Shown here: positions 7,214 to 13,929 of the stretch, in pieces | Numbering within the stretch: position 1 is the stretch's first letter | Layout: each line of letters opens with the position of its first letter | Source: Streptantibioticus ferralitis | GTDB taxonomy: Bacteria; Actinomycetota; Actinomycetes; Streptomycetales; Streptomycetaceae | Assembly: GCF_029223525.1 (NCBI RefSeq) | Contig: NZ_JARHTQ010000013.1 | Coordinates: 1 to 64,000, forward strand | DNA length: 64,000 nucleotides | Reading direction: 5' to 3' | Translations under genes and position numbers: made by a program | The notes under the pieces: model-generated | Seen by the model: the letters and a program-made list of their open reading frames with translations, nothing else | Told to the model about the DNA's origin: nothing | The model's database searches: none

Positions 7214-8425
7214 GTGCCCGAGTCCACGCATACCCCGCATCCACCGAAGTCCTCGCGGAGCGCCCCGCACCCGCACAGCGCCACCCTGCGCCGACTGGAG
7301 CAGTCCTCCGGCAGGCTGTCGGCCGCGGCGATCGCGCGCATGGACGAGCAGTTGCCGTGGTACCGCGCGATGCCGCCGGAGAACCGCTCCTGGATCGGCC
7401 TGGTCGCCCAGGCCGGTATCGCCGCCTTCACCGAGTGGTTCCGGCACCCCGAGGCACCGCAGGCCATCAGCACGGATGTGTTCGGCACCGCGCCGCGCGA
7501 GCTGACCCGGGCGATCTCGCTGCGGCAGACCGTCGAGATGGTGCGGACGACCATCGAGGTCATGGAAGCCGCGATCGATGAGGTCGCGGCGCCGGGCGAC
7601 GAGGCCGTACTGCGCGAGGCGCTGCTGGTCTACGCCCGCGAGATCGCCTTCGCCACGGCGCAGGTCTACGCGCAGGCCGCGGAGGCCCGCGGCGCGTGGG
7701 ACGCGCGACTGGAGTCGCTGGTCGTCAACGCCGTGCTGTCGGGTGAGGCGGACGAGGGAGTGCTTTCCCGGGCCGCCGCGCTCGGCTGGAGCTCACCCGA
7801 CCGAGTGGTCGTGGTACTCGGCACCGCACCCGACGGCGACAGCGAGTTGACGGTGGACGCCATCCGCCGGGCCGCCCGGCACGCCAAGTTGCAGGTGCTG
7901 ACCGGAGTGCTGGGGCACCGGCTGGTGGTCGTCGCGGGCGGGTCGGACGATCCGATCCGTACCGCCAAGGACCTCATCGGCCCGTTCGCGCCCGGCCCCG
8001 TCGTGGCCGGTCCCGTGGTGGGCGATCTGCTGGCCGCCACCCGGTCCGCACAGGCGGCCGCGGCCGGGCTCAAGGCCTGTGCGGCCTGGCCGGACGCACC
8101 GCGTCCGGTGCTCGCGGACGATCTGCTGCCGGAGCGGGCGATGGCGGGCGACCCGGCAGCCCGCGAGCAGCTGGTGGAGGAGATCTACAGACCGCTGGAG
8201 GAAGCGGGCTCCGCGCTGCTGGAGACGCTCAGCGTGTACCTGGAGCAGGCCTCGTCACTGGAAGGCGCTGCCCGGATGTTGTTCGTTCATCCCAATACCG
8301 TCCGCTACCGGCTGCGACGTGTGACGGATGTCACGGGCTGGTCGCCTTCCGATGTACGCTCCGCCTTCACCCTGCGGATCGCCCTGATCCTCGGCCGACT
8401 CTCCGGCGGGGATCAACCGGATTGA
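7214..8425 (+). CDS. fasR: PucR-family regulator of fatty acid synthesis (FasR-like)
   Basis: Regulator of 403 residues that in Streptomyces activates the fabDHPF operon lying immediately downstream; that role is known for FasR of S. coelicolor and is transferred here by synteny. The body contains a GGDEF-like CdaR/PucR domain, and the C-terminus has the PucR helix-turn-helix (ASSLEGAARMLFVHPNTVRY). The start at GTG 7214 gives an N-terminus MPESTHTPHPPK. A perfect 19-bp inverted repeat begins 4 nt after the stop and is a candidate binding site. Probably tunes membrane lipid and polyketide precursor supply. Confidence 0.92.
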   Translation: MPESTHTPHPPKSSRSAPHPHSATLRRLEQSSGRLSAAAIARMDEQLPWYRAMPPENRSWIGLVAQAGIAAFTEWFRHPEAPQAISTDVFGTAPRELTRAISLRQTVEMVRTTIEVMEAAIDEVAAPGDEAVLREALLVYAREIAFATAQVYAQAAEARGAWDARLESLVVNAVLSGEADEGVLSRAAALGWSSPDRVVVVLGTAPDGDSELTVDAIRRAARHAKLQVLTGVLGHRLVVVAGGSDDPIRTAKDLIGPFAPGPVVAGPVVGDLLAATRSAQAAAAGLKACAAWPDAPRPVLADDLLPERAMAGDPAAREQLVEEIYRPLEEAGSALLETLSVYLEQASSLEGAARMLFVHPNTVRYRLRRVTDVTGWSPSDVRSAFTLRIALILGRLSGGDQPD

Positions 8426-8447: not shown

Positions 8448-8514
8448 TCGCCTGACCGTTCTTGGTCCCTGTCCTCACCGGCGGCGACCGCCTGACGCGA
8501 GAGAGAGTGTGAAG

Positions 8515-9699
8515 GTGCTCGTACTCGTAGCTCCCGGCCAGGGCGCCCAGACGCCCGGCTTCCTCAGTCCCTGGCTCGAACTCCCGGGCGTGGCCGACCG
8601 GTTGCACTGGTGGTCCGCCGTCGCCGGACTCGACCTCGTGCACTACGGCACGAAGGGCACCGCCGACGAGATCCGCGACACCTCCGTGGCACAGCCGCTG
8701 CTGGTGGCCGCCGGTCTGGTCTCGGCCCTCTCGGTCTTCCCGCACCCGGTCGACGGACGCCGCGTGGTCGGCGCGGTGGCGGGCCACAGCGTCGGTGAGA
8801 TCACCGCCGCGGCCGGAGCCGGAGTGATCACCGCCGAGGCGGCCATGGTGCTCGTACGGCAGCGCGGCCTCGCCATGGCGCAGGCCGCGACCGTCACCGA
8901 GACCGGCATGTCCGCGGTGCTGGGCGGCGATCCGCAGGACGTGGTCGCCAAGCTGGAGGAGCACGGGCTGACCGCGGCGAACATGAACGGCGCGGGCCAG
9001 ATCGTCGCCGCCGGAACCATGGAGCAGCTCGCGGCGCTGGCCGAGGACAAGCCCGAGGGGGCGCGCGTTCGCCCGCTGCAGGTGGCCGGTGCGTTCCACA
9101 CCCACCACATGGCCCCGGCCGTCGCCACGCTGGAGGCCCTGGTGCCCGGTGTGTCGGTGCACGACCCGCGGACCCGGTACGTCTCCAACGCCGACGGCCA
9201 GGTCGTGCACAGCGGCGCGGAGATCGTCCGCCGACTGGTGAAGCAGGTGGCCGGACCGGTCCGTTGGGACCTGTGCATGGAGACCTTCAAGGAGCTCGGC
9301 GTCACCGCGCTGGTCGAGGTGTCCCCGGCCGGTACCCTCGCCGGGCTGGCCAAGCGGGCCCTGCCGGGTGTCAGGACGCTGGCGCTGAAGACCCCCGACG
9401 ACATCGACGCGGCCCGCGAGATCATCGCGGAGCACGGCGACGCCGCCGGCAACCCGCTGGAGCACGGGCCGACCTGGCGGCTCGCGGTGGCCCCGTTCAA
9501 GGGCACGGTGAGCACCGGCGAGGTCAAGGCCGGTGATGTGCTGGAGCCGGGCGCTACGGTGGCGCATGTCGCCAACAACCGCGACCGGCAGGCGGTTACC
9601 GCCGAGCACGGCGGCACCGTCGTGGAATGGCTTGTCGAGGACGGCGACCCTGTCGCCCCCGGGCAGCCGCTGCTGCGCATCCATCCCGTGGCCGAGTGA
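8515..9699 (+). CDS. fabD: Malonyl-CoA:ACP transacylase with C-terminal biotinyl/lipoyl-like domain
   Basis: Loads malonyl units onto AcpP for type II fatty acid synthesis. Catalytic serine in GHSVGE (Ser92), substrate arginine in VRQRGLAM, and active-site histidine in AFHTHHM (195-198). GTG 8515 is preferred over GTG 8509 because GAGAG then sits 9 nt upstream and the protein begins MLVLVAPGQG as in other Streptomyces FabD. At 394 residues it is about 75 longer than usual. Residues 321-394 resemble a barrel-sandwich hybrid domain (VAPFKGTV ... GDVLEPGATVAHV ... GGTVVEWLVEDGDPVAPGQ), but the position expected for the modifiable lysine reads ANNRDRQA. Confidence 0.95.
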   Translation: MLVLVAPGQGAQTPGFLSPWLELPGVADRLHWWSAVAGLDLVHYGTKGTADEIRDTSVAQPLLVAAGLVSALSVFPHPVDGRRVVGAVAGHSVGEITAAAGAGVITAEAAMVLVRQRGLAMAQAATVTETGMSAVLGGDPQDVVAKLEEHGLTAANMNGAGQIVAAGTMEQLAALAEDKPEGARVRPLQVAGAFHTHHMAPAVATLEALVPGVSVHDPRTRYVSNADGQVVHSGAEIVRRLVKQVAGPVRWDLCMETFKELGVTALVEVSPAGTLAGLAKRALPGVRTLALKTPDDIDAAREIIAEHGDAAGNPLEHGPTWRLAVAPFKGTVSTGEVKAGDVLEPGATVAHVANNRDRQAVTAEHGGTVVEWLVEDGDPVAPGQPLLRIHPVAE

Positions 9700-9748: not shown

Positions 9749-10759
9749 ATGACCGCGAAGATCAAGCCGAGCAAGGGCGCGCCCTACGCCCGCATCCTCG
9801 GCGTCGGTGGCTACCGCCCGACCCGCGTGGTGCCGAACGAGGAGATCCTCAAGTACATCGACTCCTCCGACGAGTGGATCCGCACCCGCTCCGGTATCAC
9901 CACCCGGCACTGGGCGAGCCCGCAGGAGACCGTCGCCGAGATGTCGATCGAGGCCGCGGGCAAGGCCATAGCGGACGCCGGTCTGACCGCCGAGGACGTC
10001 GACGCGGTACTCGTCGCCACGGTCACGCACTTCAAGCAGACCCCGGCCATCGCGACCGAGATCGCTCACCGGCTCGGCGCGGGCAAGCCCCCGGCGTTCG
10101 ACATCTCCGCGGGCTGTGCGGGGTTCACCTACGGGCTGACCCTGGCCAAGGGCATGGTGACCGAAGGATCGGCAAAGTACGTGCTGGTCATCGGTGTTGA
10201 GCGGCTGAGCGACCTCACCGACAAGGAAGACCGGGCCACCGCCTTCCTGTTCGGCGACGGCGCGGGCGCGGTGGTGGTGGGCCCGTCCGACGTGCCCGCG
10301 ATCGGCCCGACGGTCTGGGGCTCGGAGGGCGACAAGGCCGAGACCATCAAGCAGACCCTGCCGTGGGACGTCTACCGCGCGGCCAACCCGGAGGACATCC
10401 GCTTCCCGGCGATCACCCAGGAGGGCCAGGCGGTCTTCCGCTGGGCGGTCTACGAGATGGCCAAGGTCGCCCAGGAGGCGCTGGACGCCGCCGGTATCAC
10501 CGCGGATGAGCTGGACGCGTTCATCCCGCACCAGGCCAACATGCGGATCATCGACTCGATGATCAAAGCACTCAAGCTGCCGGAGCACGTCGCGGTCGCC
10601 CGCGACATCGAGACCACCGGCAACACCTCGTCGGCCTCCATCCCCCTCGCCATGGAGCGGCTGTTGGCGACCGGCCAGGCCAAGAGCGGCGACACCGCGC
10701 TCGTCATCGGGTTCGGGGCGGGTCTCGTCTACGCAGCCGCTGTCGTTACCCTCCCCTAG
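9749..10759 (+). CDS. fabH: 3-oxoacyl-ACP synthase III
   Basis: Initiating ketosynthase that condenses acyl-CoA with malonyl-ACP; in Streptomyces it favours branched starters. 336 residues from the ATG at 9749, preceded by GAGGAG. The catalytic triad is visible: Cys123 in SAGCAGFTYG, His261 in IPHQAN and Asn292 in ETTGNTSSAS. It follows fabD by 49 nt and precedes acpP, so it is part of the fabDHPF operon. Length and motif order are entirely typical of the family. Confidence 0.97.
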   Translation: MTAKIKPSKGAPYARILGVGGYRPTRVVPNEEILKYIDSSDEWIRTRSGITTRHWASPQETVAEMSIEAAGKAIADAGLTAEDVDAVLVATVTHFKQTPAIATEIAHRLGAGKPPAFDISAGCAGFTYGLTLAKGMVTEGSAKYVLVIGVERLSDLTDKEDRATAFLFGDGAGAVVVGPSDVPAIGPTVWGSEGDKAETIKQTLPWDVYRAANPEDIRFPAITQEGQAVFRWAVYEMAKVAQEALDAAGITADELDAFIPHQANMRIIDSMIKALKLPEHVAVARDIETTGNTSSASIPLAMERLLATGQAKSGDTALVIGFGAGLVYAAAVVTLP

Positions 10760-10832: not shown

Positions 10833-11081
10833 ATGGCCCACACCAAGGAAGAGATCGTCGCCGGTCTCGCCGAGATCGTCAACGAGATCGCTGGCATCCC
10901 GGTCGAGGATGTCCAGGTGGACAAGTCCTTCACCGATGACCTGGACGTCGACTCGCTGTCCATGGTCGAGGTCGTCGTCGCCGCCGAGGAGCGCTTCGAC
11001 GTGAAGATCCCGGACGACGACGTCAAGAACCTCAAGACCGTCGGCGACGCGACCGACTACATCCTGAAGCACCAGAGCTGA
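10833..11081 (+). CDS. acpP: Acyl carrier protein
   Basis: Small acidic carrier of 82 residues for type II fatty acid synthesis. Ser41 in DLDVDSLSMVE is the 4'-phosphopantetheine attachment site. Strong ribosome-binding site GAAGGAG upstream of the ATG. It lies between fabH and fabF, the standard Streptomyces order. The 73-nt gap after fabH may contain an extra promoter, as expected for a highly expressed carrier, but I cannot assign boxes with confidence. Confidence 0.97.
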   Translation: MAHTKEEIVAGLAEIVNEIAGIPVEDVQVDKSFTDDLDVDSLSMVEVVVAAEERFDVKIPDDDVKNLKTVGDATDYILKHQS

Positions 11082-11169
11082 ACCATCCCGTAGGTTGACG
11101 CGTCTGTCGCCGCCCGCCCGGGTGGCACCGCGTTGCCTTCACCCTCGATACGTGGAGACAAGAATTCCT

Positions 11170-12432
11170 GTGAACTCGACCAATCGCACCGTGGTCGTCA
11201 CCGGTATCGGCGCAACCACACCCTTGGGTGGCGACAGCGCATCAACCTGGGAGGCGCTGCTCGCCGGACGCTCCGGCGTGACGCCCCTGGAGCAGGAGTG
11301 GGCCGCTGACCTGCCGGTTCGCATCGCGGCGCAGATCGCCGTGGAGCCGACCGAGGTCCTGCCCCGCCCGCTCGCCCGCAAGCTGGACCGCTCGGCGCAG
11401 TTCGCGCTGATCGCGGCCCGGGAGGCATGGGCGGACGCCGGGTTCTCCGGCAAGGCCGGGGACGAGCCCGCGGTCGACCCGGACCGCCTCGGCACGGTGG
11501 TGGCCTCCGGCATCGGCGGCGTCACCACCCTGCTCGGCCAGTACGACGTCCTGCGTGAGCAGGGCTTCCGCAAGGTCTCCCCGCACACCGTGCCGATGCT
11601 GATGCCCAACAGCCCGTCGGCGAACGTCAGCATCGAGTTCAACGCGCGGGCCGGTACGCACACCCCGGTCAGCGCCTGCGCGTCGGGCGCCGAGGCCATC
11701 GGCTACGCGATCGAGATGATCCGCACCGGCCGTGCCGACGTCGTCGTGGCGGGCGGCACCGAGGCGGCGGTGCACCCGCTGCCCATCGCGGCCTTCGCCA
11801 ACATGATGGCGATGTCGAAGAACAACGACGACCCGCAGGGCGCCTCCCGCCCGTACGACGTCGCCCGCGACGGCTTCGTCATGGGTGAGGGCTCGGGCAT
11901 CGTCGTCCTGGAGTCCGCCGAGCACGCCGCCAAGCGCGGTGCCCGGGTGTACTGCGAGGCGATCGGCCAGGGCATCTCCGCCGACGCCCACCACATCGCC
12001 CAGCCGGAGCCCACCGGCCGCGGCATCTCCGGCGCGCTCACCAACCTGCTGGACAACTCGGACCTGAAGCCGGCCGAGATCGCGCACATCAACGCGCACG
12101 CCACCTCCACGCCGCTCGGTGACGTCGGCGAGCTCAGGGCGCTGCGCGCGGTCTTCGGGGACGACATCGACCACATGGCGGTCTCCGCCACCAAGTCGAT
12201 GACCGGCCATCTGCTGGGCGGCGCGGGCGGCGTCGAGACGGTGGCCACCGTCCTCGCGTTGCACAACCGCATCGCTCCGCCGACGATCAATGTGGACAAC
12301 CTCGACCCCGAGGTCGACGCGAACATCGTGCGCGGCGAGGCGCGACCCCTGCCCGAGGGCACCATCGTGGCGCTCAATGACTCGTTCGGCTTCGGCGGTC
12401 TCAACGTCGTCCTGGCGTTCCGCAAGAGCTGA
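11170..12432 (+). CDS. fabF: 3-oxoacyl-ACP synthase II
   Basis: Elongating ketosynthase of fatty acid synthesis, 420 residues from GTG 11170 with GGAG upstream; the frame is open further 5' but those codons are not conserved in character. Active-site Cys170 in VSACASG, His310 in INAHATST, Lys342 and His347 in TKSMTGHLLGGAGG. It is the fourth gene of the fab operon. Downstream, a hairpin-forming repeat separates it from an accD-type gene in the same direction. Confidence 0.96.
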   Translation: MNSTNRTVVVTGIGATTPLGGDSASTWEALLAGRSGVTPLEQEWAADLPVRIAAQIAVEPTEVLPRPLARKLDRSAQFALIAAREAWADAGFSGKAGDEPAVDPDRLGTVVASGIGGVTTLLGQYDVLREQGFRKVSPHTVPMLMPNSPSANVSIEFNARAGTHTPVSACASGAEAIGYAIEMIRTGRADVVVAGGTEAAVHPLPIAAFANMMAMSKNNDDPQGASRPYDVARDGFVMGEGSGIVVLESAEHAAKRGARVYCEAIGQGISADAHHIAQPEPTGRGISGALTNLLDNSDLKPAEIAHINAHATSTPLGDVGELRALRAVFGDDIDHMAVSATKSMTGHLLGGAGGVETVATVLALHNRIAPPTINVDNLDPEVDANIVRGEARPLPEGTIVALNDSFGFGGLNVVLAFRKS

Positions 12433-12469: not shown

Positions 12470-12497
12470 CCTCCCCCGTGCCTCAGGGCATGGGAGG
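12470..12497. repeat. Hairpin-forming intergenic repeat
   Basis: CCTCCC..GTGCC pairs with GGCATGGGAGG around a TCA/G loop between fabF and the carboxyltransferase gene. I recall very similar dispersed intergenic hairpins in Streptomyces genomes. It could attenuate transcription or protect the upstream mRNA. Confidence 0.5.
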
Positions 12498-12531
12498 TAC
12501 CCCCCTCGCCCTGACCCGAGGAGGCCGCAGG

Positions 12532-13929
12532 ATGGCCGGCAAGCCGCCACGCGAGAGCGATCCGCGCAATCCGCGGCTGCGGCTGCGGGCCCTGCTGGAC
12601 GAGGACGGCTACCAGGAGGTCTCGGCCTACGACGAGTCGGGCATGCTCGCCGCGATCGGCACGGCGGACGGGGCGAAGGTGGTCGCGTTCGCTTCCGATC
12701 CGACCGTGCAGGGCGGCGCGATGGGCGCCGAGGGCTGCGATGTGGTGGTCCGCGCCTATGACCGGGCGGTGGCCGAGAACTGCCCGATCATCGGGATCTA
12801 CCATTCGGGCGGCGCCCGGCTCCAGGAGGGCGTCGGCTCACTGGACGCGGTCGGCCGGATCTTCCACGCGATGATCCTGGCCTCCGGCCGGGTCCCGCAG
12901 ATCTCGGTGGTGCTGGGCCCGGCGGCGGGCGGCGCGGCATACGGTCCCGCGCTGACCGATGTGGTGATTCTGGGGCCCGAGGGCCGGATCTTCGTGACCG
13001 GGCCCGATGTGGTGCGTACGGTCACCGGGGAGACCGTCGACATGGCCCGACTGGGCGGCCCGGAACCGCATGGCCGCCGCTCGGGCGTGGTACACGTGAT
13101 CGCCGACTCCGAGCGGGACGCGTTCGACAAGGCCCGCTGGCTGGCCGAACTCCTGGGAACCCAGGTCGAGTCGCGCCTCGACGAGGTCGAGGACCGGCCG
13201 TTGGGCGAGATCCTGCCGGAGTCGCCCCGGCGCGCCTATGACGTACGCCCGCTGGTGGAGCGGGTGTTGGACACCCCAGGACTGGAACTGCACCCGAAGT
13301 GGGCGCCGAACATCATCACCGCGCTGGGACGGCTCGGCGGTCAGGCGGTCGGTGTGGTCGCCAACAACCCGCTGCGGCTGGGCGGTTGTCTGGACTCCCT
13401 CTCCGCGGAGAAGGCGGCCCGCTTTGTGCGGATGTGTGATGCGTTCGGAGTGCCGCTGGTGGTCCTGGTGGACGTCCCCGGCTATCTGCCCGGGGTCGGA
13501 CAGGAGTGGGACGGCGTCGTACGCCGCGGCGCGAAGCTGCTGCACGCGTTCGGGGAGTGCGTGGTGCCGCGGGTCACCGTGGTCACCCGTAAGGCGTACG
13601 GGGGCGCGTACATCGCGATGAACTCCCGCTCGCTCGGCGCGACCAAGGTCCTGGCGTGGCCGCAGGCGCAGGTCGCGGTGATGGGGGCGGTGGCGGCGGT
13701 GCGGATCCTGCACCGCAGGCGGCTGTCCCAGGTCCCCGACGAGCTCAAGGAGCAGTTCGAGCTGGAGCTGGCGGCGGAGCACGAGATCGTGGCGGGCGGT
13801 CTGCCCAAAGCGATGGAACTGGGCGTCGTCGACGAGGTGGTCTCACCGGACGCGACCCGCACCGCGATCGCCGAGGCCATCCGTGAGGCCCCGGCGCGCC
13901 GCGGAGCCCACGACAACATCCCGCTTTAG
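12532..13929 (+). CDS. Acyl-CoA carboxylase beta subunit (AccD6-like carboxyltransferase)
   Basis: Carboxyltransferase of 465 residues that would move CO2 from a biotinylated alpha subunit to acetyl- or propionyl-CoA to make malonyl- or methylmalonyl-CoA. Two crotonase halves are visible: the N half with YHSGGARLQEGVGS, the C half with RKAYGGAYIAMNSRSLGA, plus GGCLDSLSAEKAARFVRMCD and the C-terminal HDNIPL. The ATG at 12532 follows GAGGAGG. Its place directly after fabF mirrors mycobacterial accD6 after kasA/kasB, so a role in feeding the adjacent fatty acid synthase is likely. No alpha or epsilon subunit is nearby. Confidence 0.9.
   Translation: MAGKPPRESDPRNPRLRLRALLDEDGYQEVSAYDESGMLAAIGTADGAKVVAFASDPTVQGGAMGAEGCDVVVRAYDRAVAENCPIIGIYHSGGARLQEGVGSLDAVGRIFHAMILASGRVPQISVVLGPAAGGAAYGPALTDVVILGPEGRIFVTGPDVVRTVTGETVDMARLGGPEPHGRRSGVVHVIADSERDAFDKARWLAELLGTQVESRLDEVEDRPLGEILPESPRRAYDVRPLVERVLDTPGLELHPKWAPNIITALGRLGGQAVGVVANNPLRLGGCLDSLSAEKAARFVRMCDAFGVPLVVLVDVPGYLPGVGQEWDGVVRRGAKLLHAFGECVVPRVTVVTRKAYGGAYIAMNSRSLGATKVLAWPQAQVAVMGAVAAVRILHRRRLSQVPDELKEQFELELAAEHEIVAGGLPKAMELGVVDEVVSPDATRTAIAEAIREAPARRGAHDNIPL

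Follow-up and report, generated by a model that had tools for sequence, protein, structure and literature searches.

A lysine-less BCCP-fold domain at the C-terminus of actinobacterial FabD and its association with the operon AccD6

Why would a malonyl-CoA:ACP malonyltransferase carry a biotin-carrier-like domain at its end? The question is raised by fabD in the window, a 64,000-nucleotide stretch of Streptantibioticus ferralitis DNA (NZ_JARHTQ010000013.1, positions 1 to 64,000) that holds a fatty acid operon consisting of a PucR-type regulator, fabD, fabH, acpP, fabF and a carboxyltransferase gene. An initial annotation made from the sequence alone had proposed that FabD ends in a biotinyl/lipoyl-like domain without its lysine, and that this domain may dock an acyl-CoA carboxylase or ACP. 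The relevant features are as follows, in window coordinates.

7214..8425, + strand: PucR-type regulator, upstream of fabD (Pfam PF13556, PF17853)
8515..9699, + strand: fabD, malonyl-CoA:ACP malonyltransferase with C-terminal extension, 394 aa, GHSVGE motif
9439..9474, + strand: linker, FabD residues 309-320, variable in sequence and of low predicted order
9475..9696, + strand: lysine-less biotinyl (BCCP-like) domain, FabD residues 321-394 (Pfam, PDB search, AlphaFold2, fold matches)
9580..9585, + strand: Arg356-Asp357, at the hairpin tip where a biotinyl domain would have its lysine (alignment)
9637..9639, + strand: Glu375 of the FabD tail (alignment conservation)
9682..9687, + strand: His390-Pro391 of FabD, past the last strand (alignment conservation)
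9749..10759, + strand: fabH, beta-ketoacyl-ACP synthase III (Pfam PF08545, PF08541)
10833..11081, + strand: acpP, acyl carrier protein (Pfam PF00550)
11095..12432, + strand: fabF, beta-ketoacyl-ACP synthase, start uncertain (Pfam PF00109, PF02801)
12478..13929, + strand: accD6, carboxyltransferase subunit, start uncertain (ATG 12532 possible); best PDB match M. tuberculosis AccD6
13036..13080, + strand: AccD6 loop VDMARLGGPEPHGRR, residues 168-182 (numbered from 12535), candidate docking site, conserved mainly where the tail is present

The fabD reading is uninterrupted from a GTG at 8515 (or from another GTG at 8509, for 396 aa) until the stop codon at 9697-9699. The first 310 residues make up an ordinary FabD: a fold search returned S. 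coelicolor FabD (1nm2) at 71% identity, a separate match to that enzyme (E 4.2e-127) reaches only to residue 311 of the 396-aa reading, Pfam recognises the acyltransferase domain (PF00698, 52.6 bits) and the GHSVGE motif, starting at G90, is invariant. The protein misses the NCBIfam cut-off for the fabD equivalog TIGR00128 (166.7 vs 260.9 bits) and likewise that for malonate_mdcH (176.2 vs 297.9 bits), but is identified as FabD nonetheless because of its identity to the solved S. coelicolor enzyme and its place in a fab operon. Tailed FabDs that miss both cut-offs may receive vague names from automatic annotation.

The carboxyltransferase gene does lie four genes after fabD, as had been claimed, and its product scores 627 bits against M. 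tuberculosis AccD6 (4fb8), 398 against PccB and 380 against AccD5; by these scores it is an AccD6 orthologue, nearer to AccD6 than to PccB or AccD5. According to PMC11617747, MabR holds the same position upstream of fabD in M. tuberculosis as the PucR-type regulator does here. Elsewhere in the same genome (G000), a very large modular polyketide synthase region spans ~262000-391000 of contig C44, with open frames of up to 8082 aa and many acyltransferase matches.

A BCCP-fold domain without its lysine

The last 74 residues of FabD (321-394) form a domain of their own, in agreement with the earlier estimate of about 75 residues beyond the classic enzyme. Searched alone, the tail passes the Pfam cut-offs for Biotin_lipoyl (PF00364, 28.1 bits, cut-off 22.1), Biotin-lipoyl like (PF13533, 34.6 bits, cut-off 29.8) and HlyD_3 (PF13437, 35.0 bits, cut-off 22.2); with whole FabD as the query, PF00364 passes (24.9 bits) and PF13533 fails (25.5 bits). 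The top match in a single-sequence PDB search was the transcarboxylase 1.3S biotin carrier (E 3.3e-4), and in that alignment an Arg of the tail occupies the biotinyl Lys position. AlphaFold2, run on the tail only with an 81-row alignment, gave an all-beta model with a pLDDT of 94.5, for which the best fold match was 1bdo (Foldseek TM 0.85; VIA-align Z 12.8, rmsd 1.8 over 72 residues), the first among best matches that are BCCP biotinyl domains. The barrel-sandwich hybrid foreseen in the initial annotation is thus recovered by Pfam, by structure prediction and by fold comparison, and the prediction it had called for returned a BCCP barrel-sandwich rather than some other fold. That the tail is a true lysine-less BCCP-fold domain is close to certain. 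A lipoyl or HlyD adaptor identity was considered and rejected: the HlyD_3 cut-off is passed, yet BCCP domains rank first by fold. Order in the linker is predicted to be low (AlphaFold2 block pLDDT 58, with residues 317-319 below 50).

The biotinyl-lysine column of the window tail is Arg356. Across 112 aligned tails this column is R in 100 and K in none, and among 80 named loci (the best 80 of 408 matches, selected by tail motifs) the site reads RD in 70, RE in 7, GD in 2 and SE in 1. At the positions of VANNRDRQ in the tail, a pair of biotinyl proteins encoded by the same genome read VEAMKMEH and VEAMKLMN. The claim that ANNRDRQA replaces the biotin/lipoyl lysine motif therefore stands, and no lysine-bearing ancestor of the fusion was found among the 112 aligned tails. 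Elsewhere in the domain the stretch EWLVEDGDPV.PGQPL.R.HP is nearly invariant, and Trp321, Arg322 and Arg388, near both ends, are conserved. Judged from these alignments, loss of the lysine is not simple decay, a conserved Arg-Asp/Glu standing in its place, and the tail appears to be a relative of biotin carriers and not itself a carrier. It should not carry biotin, because the biotin lysine has been replaced by the conserved Arg-Asp/Glu; the earlier suggestion of a non-modified domain is accordingly strengthened as regards unsuitability for biotinylation, by the Arg at the lysine site, the fold and the motif comparison.

Distribution of the tail and its association with AccD6

FabD lengths are bimodal, with 380-411 aa for tailed and 298-341 aa for tail-less proteins and a single degenerate form of 359 aa. 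The tail was found in 12/61 genomes of the window's family, where the other 49 matches end at residue 310-346, and its profile is matched in 16/147 genomes of the order and in approximately 122/394 genomes (62/138 genera) of the class, FabD being found in 358 of the 394 at the threshold used. The class search misses some degenerate tails (G287, G328, G300), and one of the 122 matches (G522) lies in a 709-aa frame that has no FabD match and is probably an ordinary biotinyl protein, not FabD. Among named organisms, the tail is carried by Streptantibioticus, Wenjunlia, Embleya, Yinghuangia, Catenulispora, Jiangella, Nocardioides, Janibacter, Intrasporangium, Auraticoccus, Nanopelagicales MAGs and a small number of strains called Streptomyces sp., among others. 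When 296 genomes were drawn from the phylum, there were 65 matches to the tail profile at E 1e-7, in which the FabD tails of the window genome and of G287, both members of the window's class, score 130 and 56 bits and all other rows 46 bits or less; ten of the low-scoring loci were read and proved to be five EAMKM lysine-bearing biotinyl proteins and five without a usable motif.

An assembly or sequencing artefact absent from relatives, the weakness that the initial annotation had named, is ruled out: the in-frame tail recurs in many genera at the family, order and class frequencies given above and is widespread in relatives. This class-wide spread, the conserved Arg-Asp/Glu and AccD6 as a likely partner could not have been revealed by the first view of the sequence. 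Some individual loci are irregular. Two short contigs from MAGs assigned to Sphaerobacter and Bifidobacterium breve (L106, L145) carry a tailed, actinomycete-type fabD, the assignments probably reflecting binning contamination, and the tail of L106 is letter-for-letter identical to that of L047 (genome G061). In G389 (contig C2, 319472-320675) the FabD core and tail lie in separate frames of 410 and 112 aa, owing to a frameshift or sequencing error.

Presence of the tail is associated with the AccD6 gene at the far end of the operon. AccD6 lies downstream of 105/112 tailed but only 16/63 tail-less FabDs in 175 loci that were not sampled at random: tail motifs served to select the best 80 of 408 matches, and the others were chosen to cover families. 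By comparison, acpP and fabF follow 112/112 tailed and 63/63 tail-less FabDs, and fabH follows 112/112 and 58/63. An accD was scored as present when it exceeded 150 bits on the same strand within 5 kb. The starting set comprised 195 sequences (the window plus L092-L285), from which one locus with a cut FabD (L137), five identical cores and 14 loci with short downstream sequence, a cut FabD or an ambiguous accD (including L110) were left out; L208, with its degenerate tail, was entered as tail-less. Counted anywhere in the genome (E 1e-135), an AccD6 orthologue is present in 108/122 tail-matching genomes (108/121 without G522) and 127/272 others of the class, in a table of 394 drawn genomes without tree correction; several of the 14 tail-matching genomes without AccD6 are incomplete assemblies.

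The association persists when relatedness is taken into account. A carefully built tree was made from 138 FabD cores, thinned from the 175, with a bootstrap that had not quite converged (0.985). It implies 18 or more changes of the tail, and independent contrasts on it gave 15 supported pairs in which 8.9 agree, 0.5 disagree and 5.6 show no difference (median p 0.0078, range 0.002-0.18). The same test on three quick trees gave median p of 0.031, 0.016 and 0.031; for the earlier quick-tree set (n=141), L145, L106 and L157 were also excluded. Seen from accD, 7.2 of 13 contrasts were uninformative. Pairs that differ in both tail and accD are L099/L232, L094/L231 and L130/L184, on starred branches, and more weakly L246/L174. 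A single deletion cannot remove both tail and accD, since they lie at opposite ends of the operon and the intervening fabH, acpP and fabF are retained. In the window's own family (f1, taken to be Streptomycetaceae from contigs shared with named records), all 19 tail-less loci read lack accD, as does G011, although operon transfer within this family may inflate the count of co-losses. Nine genomes with accD-less operons were searched for AccD elsewhere: in eight the best AccD is a paralogue at 44-49%, and the ninth (G287) has a 60% AccD copy, yet a diverged tail.

A strict dependence of the tail on AccD6 was ruled out, as each feature changes without the other on the tree and exceptions exist. 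AccD6 does not need the tail, because AccD6 without it is common (16/63 tail-less loci; 127 class genomes), and in family f16 (L208, L213, L217) the tail is decayed or lost although AccD6 stays. Correlated loss shows a tie between tail and AccD6, not contact. As to the partners first proposed, an acyl-CoA carboxylase gains indirect support from the tree-corrected co-occurrence of genes, which points to AccD6 specifically as the likely partner, while the constancy of acpP downstream of tail-less FabDs makes it less likely that the tail exists for ACP.

Tails have also eroded in most lineages where AccD6 has left the operon. Seven of the 112 tailed rows, in ~6 lineages, have no operon AccD6, and their tails diverge beyond what the core predicts when compared with the other 105 (Mann-Whitney p 1.1e-4, uncorrected for relatedness). 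Five of the seven have at most one of the 105 below them; L121, with a fairly good tail, lies above 5, and L113, which has no operon accD and a perfect tail, above 80. Conserved core positions are kept at 0.964 with AccD6 and 0.893 without it, and conserved tail positions at 0.951 and 0.745. The residues with the lowest p among 28 conserved tail positions (uncorrected) are R356 (98/105 with operon AccD6 vs 2/7 without), E375 (96/105 vs 2/7) and H390 (101/105 vs 3/7).

In L029 and L226 (G054) the FabD is closely related to that of the window but tail-less, and its C-terminus, ..GGASLPLIHPAAEEESPQT, resembles the last residues of the tail; the tail ends in RIHPAAE in the nearest relatives of the G054 FabD, whose own C-terminus is possibly a deletion scar. 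The 359-aa FabD of L208 (G300, f16) keeps the first tail strand and the ELLVADGDPVSAGQPLARV end and has lost the hairpin-tip middle, and is read as an intermediate of tail loss with AccD6 still in the operon. At L110 (Actinospica acidithermotolerans, ~8552-8902) the AccD6 match that comes immediately after fabF, beside a conserved FabD tail, covers only the last 117 residues of the protein, which is a truncated gene or an assembly break.

If the tail has a counterpart on AccD6, residues 168-182 are the candidate. AccD6 columns were compared between 104 proteins from tailed and 16 from tail-less genomes: 17 are conserved only with the tail, 2 only without it and 156 in both, an asymmetry that is partly expected given how few and how varied the tail-less proteins are. 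The VDMARLGGPEPHGRR loop contains six of the 17 (P 0.0025, conserved columns resampled), the loop columns having been chosen for their tailed/tail-less difference. R172, R181 and R182 occur together in 102/104 tailed and 2/16 tail-less genomes, namely L208 and L213 of f16, where the loop is unchanged despite a decayed or lost tail. In family f27 the loop is changed in the tail-less L192 and L205 and kept in their tailed relatives L248 and L249; L177 and L176 are tail-less, yet keep much of it. After tree correction the loop contrasts run ~3 to 0 of 6 pairs, too few for significance, and the highest-scoring AccD6 column in contrasts, D326, lies outside the loop. The tail residues E371, E375, D376 and D378 are acidic and the loop residues R172, R181 and R182 basic, which suggests that the two may form an interface.

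Proposed role of the tail and its alternatives

The tail is most plausibly a dock for AccD6, because it is fused to FabD and is kept mostly where the operon encodes AccD6. The domain would be a pseudo-BCCP adaptor, tethered to the catalytic domain of FabD by a short flexible linker, that binds AccD6 much as a real BCCP domain visits its carboxyltransferase; a BCCP fold without the lysine could retain the binding behaviour without the chemistry. The user of malonyl-CoA, FabD, would thereby be held beside its maker, AccD6, with the basic AccD6 loop facing the tip at Arg356 and the acidic strand EWLVEDGD; the arrangement might serve hand-over of malonyl-CoA, co-localisation or control of AccD6. 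We give this docking reading a probability of roughly 55%. That AccD6 is the functional partner of the tail, by whatever means, is a little more probable, whereas channelling proper of malonyl-CoA is a tentative proposal. Equally speculative is a fuller history, in which an ex-biotin carrier, frozen by a Lys-to-Arg change, was acquired by FabD in an ancestor common to much of the class and physically links acetyl-CoA carboxylase (AccD6) with malonyl transfer in a committed-step complex, with the Arg356 tip at the carboxyltransferase's biotinyl-lysine entry or at the VDMARLGGPEPHGRR loop, and in which the tail tends to go when another AccD replaces AccD6.

The tail could instead be a structural appendage of FabD that acts in stability, dimerisation or as an active-site lid and has no partner protein. 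It is in cis to FabD, and the conserved Trp321, Arg322 and Arg388 near the domain ends could face the core; FabD is also complete without it, 1nm2 ending before the tail. This explanation is nevertheless unlikely, given a linker that is variable and predicted to be disordered, a loss of the tail that tracks the AccD6 gene on the tree, and tails that diverge once AccD6 has left the operon while the FabD core remains. A similarly low probability attaches to a regulatory role, in which the pseudo-BCCP would occupy the BCCP site of AccD6 and restrain malonyl-CoA synthesis when FabD is idle. All of the evidence for AccD6 docking is shared by this proposal and does not separate inhibition from tethering; a biotin-less mimic of a mobile substrate domain would make a natural competitive inhibitor, but fusion to FabD would be an odd route to a pure inhibitor.

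The association with AccD6 might also arise without any interaction, if operons lacking both tail and accD had spread as units by horizontal transfer. The interleaving of tailed and tail-less rows in the FabD tree fits such spread, as does the absence of accD in 20 (the 19 f1 loci and G011) of the 49 tail-less genomes of the family. Against it, widely separated lineages show the same pairing (L130/L184, support 100/97; L250 and L165 with L187, 99/92; L246/L174, 97/56), residual tails diverge after the loss of AccD6, and the short FabD of G054 ends in IHPAAE.., like the tail's own end, as deletion in place would predict; linkage is slightly less credible than either of the preceding alternatives. 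Least probable is recruitment of acyl carrier protein or another Fas-II enzyme. The acpP, fabH and fabF genes do sit between fabD and accD, but loss of the tail does not follow acpP or fabF, as both follow all 63 tail-less FabDs, and the best fold matches are carboxylase biotin carriers.

Docking on AccD6, the preferred reading, would mean that a covalent carrier has apparently been converted into a non-covalent adaptor, widespread in one bacterial class. Actinobacteria are major polyketide makers, and polyketide supply depends on malonyl-CoA. With the domain, its residues and its partner all named, the architecture allows a direct test of whether bacteria pass malonyl-CoA straight from acetyl-CoA carboxylase to FabD. 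No earlier description of a FabD-biotinyl fusion was found in the open-access literature searched, nor was a report of FabD-AccD6 contact in the parts of that literature that were accessible.

Comparison with known systems

The closest structural relatives of the tail are the biotinyl domains of BCCP and acyl-CoA carboxylase alpha-chains (1bdo; transcarboxylase 1.3S, 1dcz), which share the barrel-sandwich over the whole tail (Z 12.8 to 1bdo) and its repeated hairpins; 1dcz is matched in sequence at E 3.3e-4. In contrast to BCCP domains, the tail has an Arg-Asp/Glu tip without the modification-site lysine and is fused to an acyltransferase, not to biotin carboxylase. BCCP domains move between biotin carboxylase and carboxyltransferase, as modelled for E. 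coli in PMC10863985.

Another enzyme with a C-terminal domain of this fold is the cyanophycin dipeptide hydrolase CphZ (8eip, 8ein; Z 10.8-10.9), which differs in its unrelated catalytic domain and is only 15-17% identical. To our knowledge the CphZ domain is not biotinylated, and we know of no link between CphZ and a carboxylase.

The catalytic domain itself is that of S. coelicolor FabD (1nm2) and M. tuberculosis FabD (2qc3), at 71% and 52% identity, but the solved chains of both lack the tail found in the window. The related M. tuberculosis operon has the order fabD-acpM-kasA-kasB-accD6 (PMC11617747), and the carboxyltransferase of the window operon is, at 627 bits, the orthologue of its AccD6 (4fb8). 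Since its solved FabD chain ends without a tail, M. tuberculosis pairs accD6 with a tail-less FabD, unlike the window operon, in which accD6 accompanies a FabD that carries the lysine-less domain.
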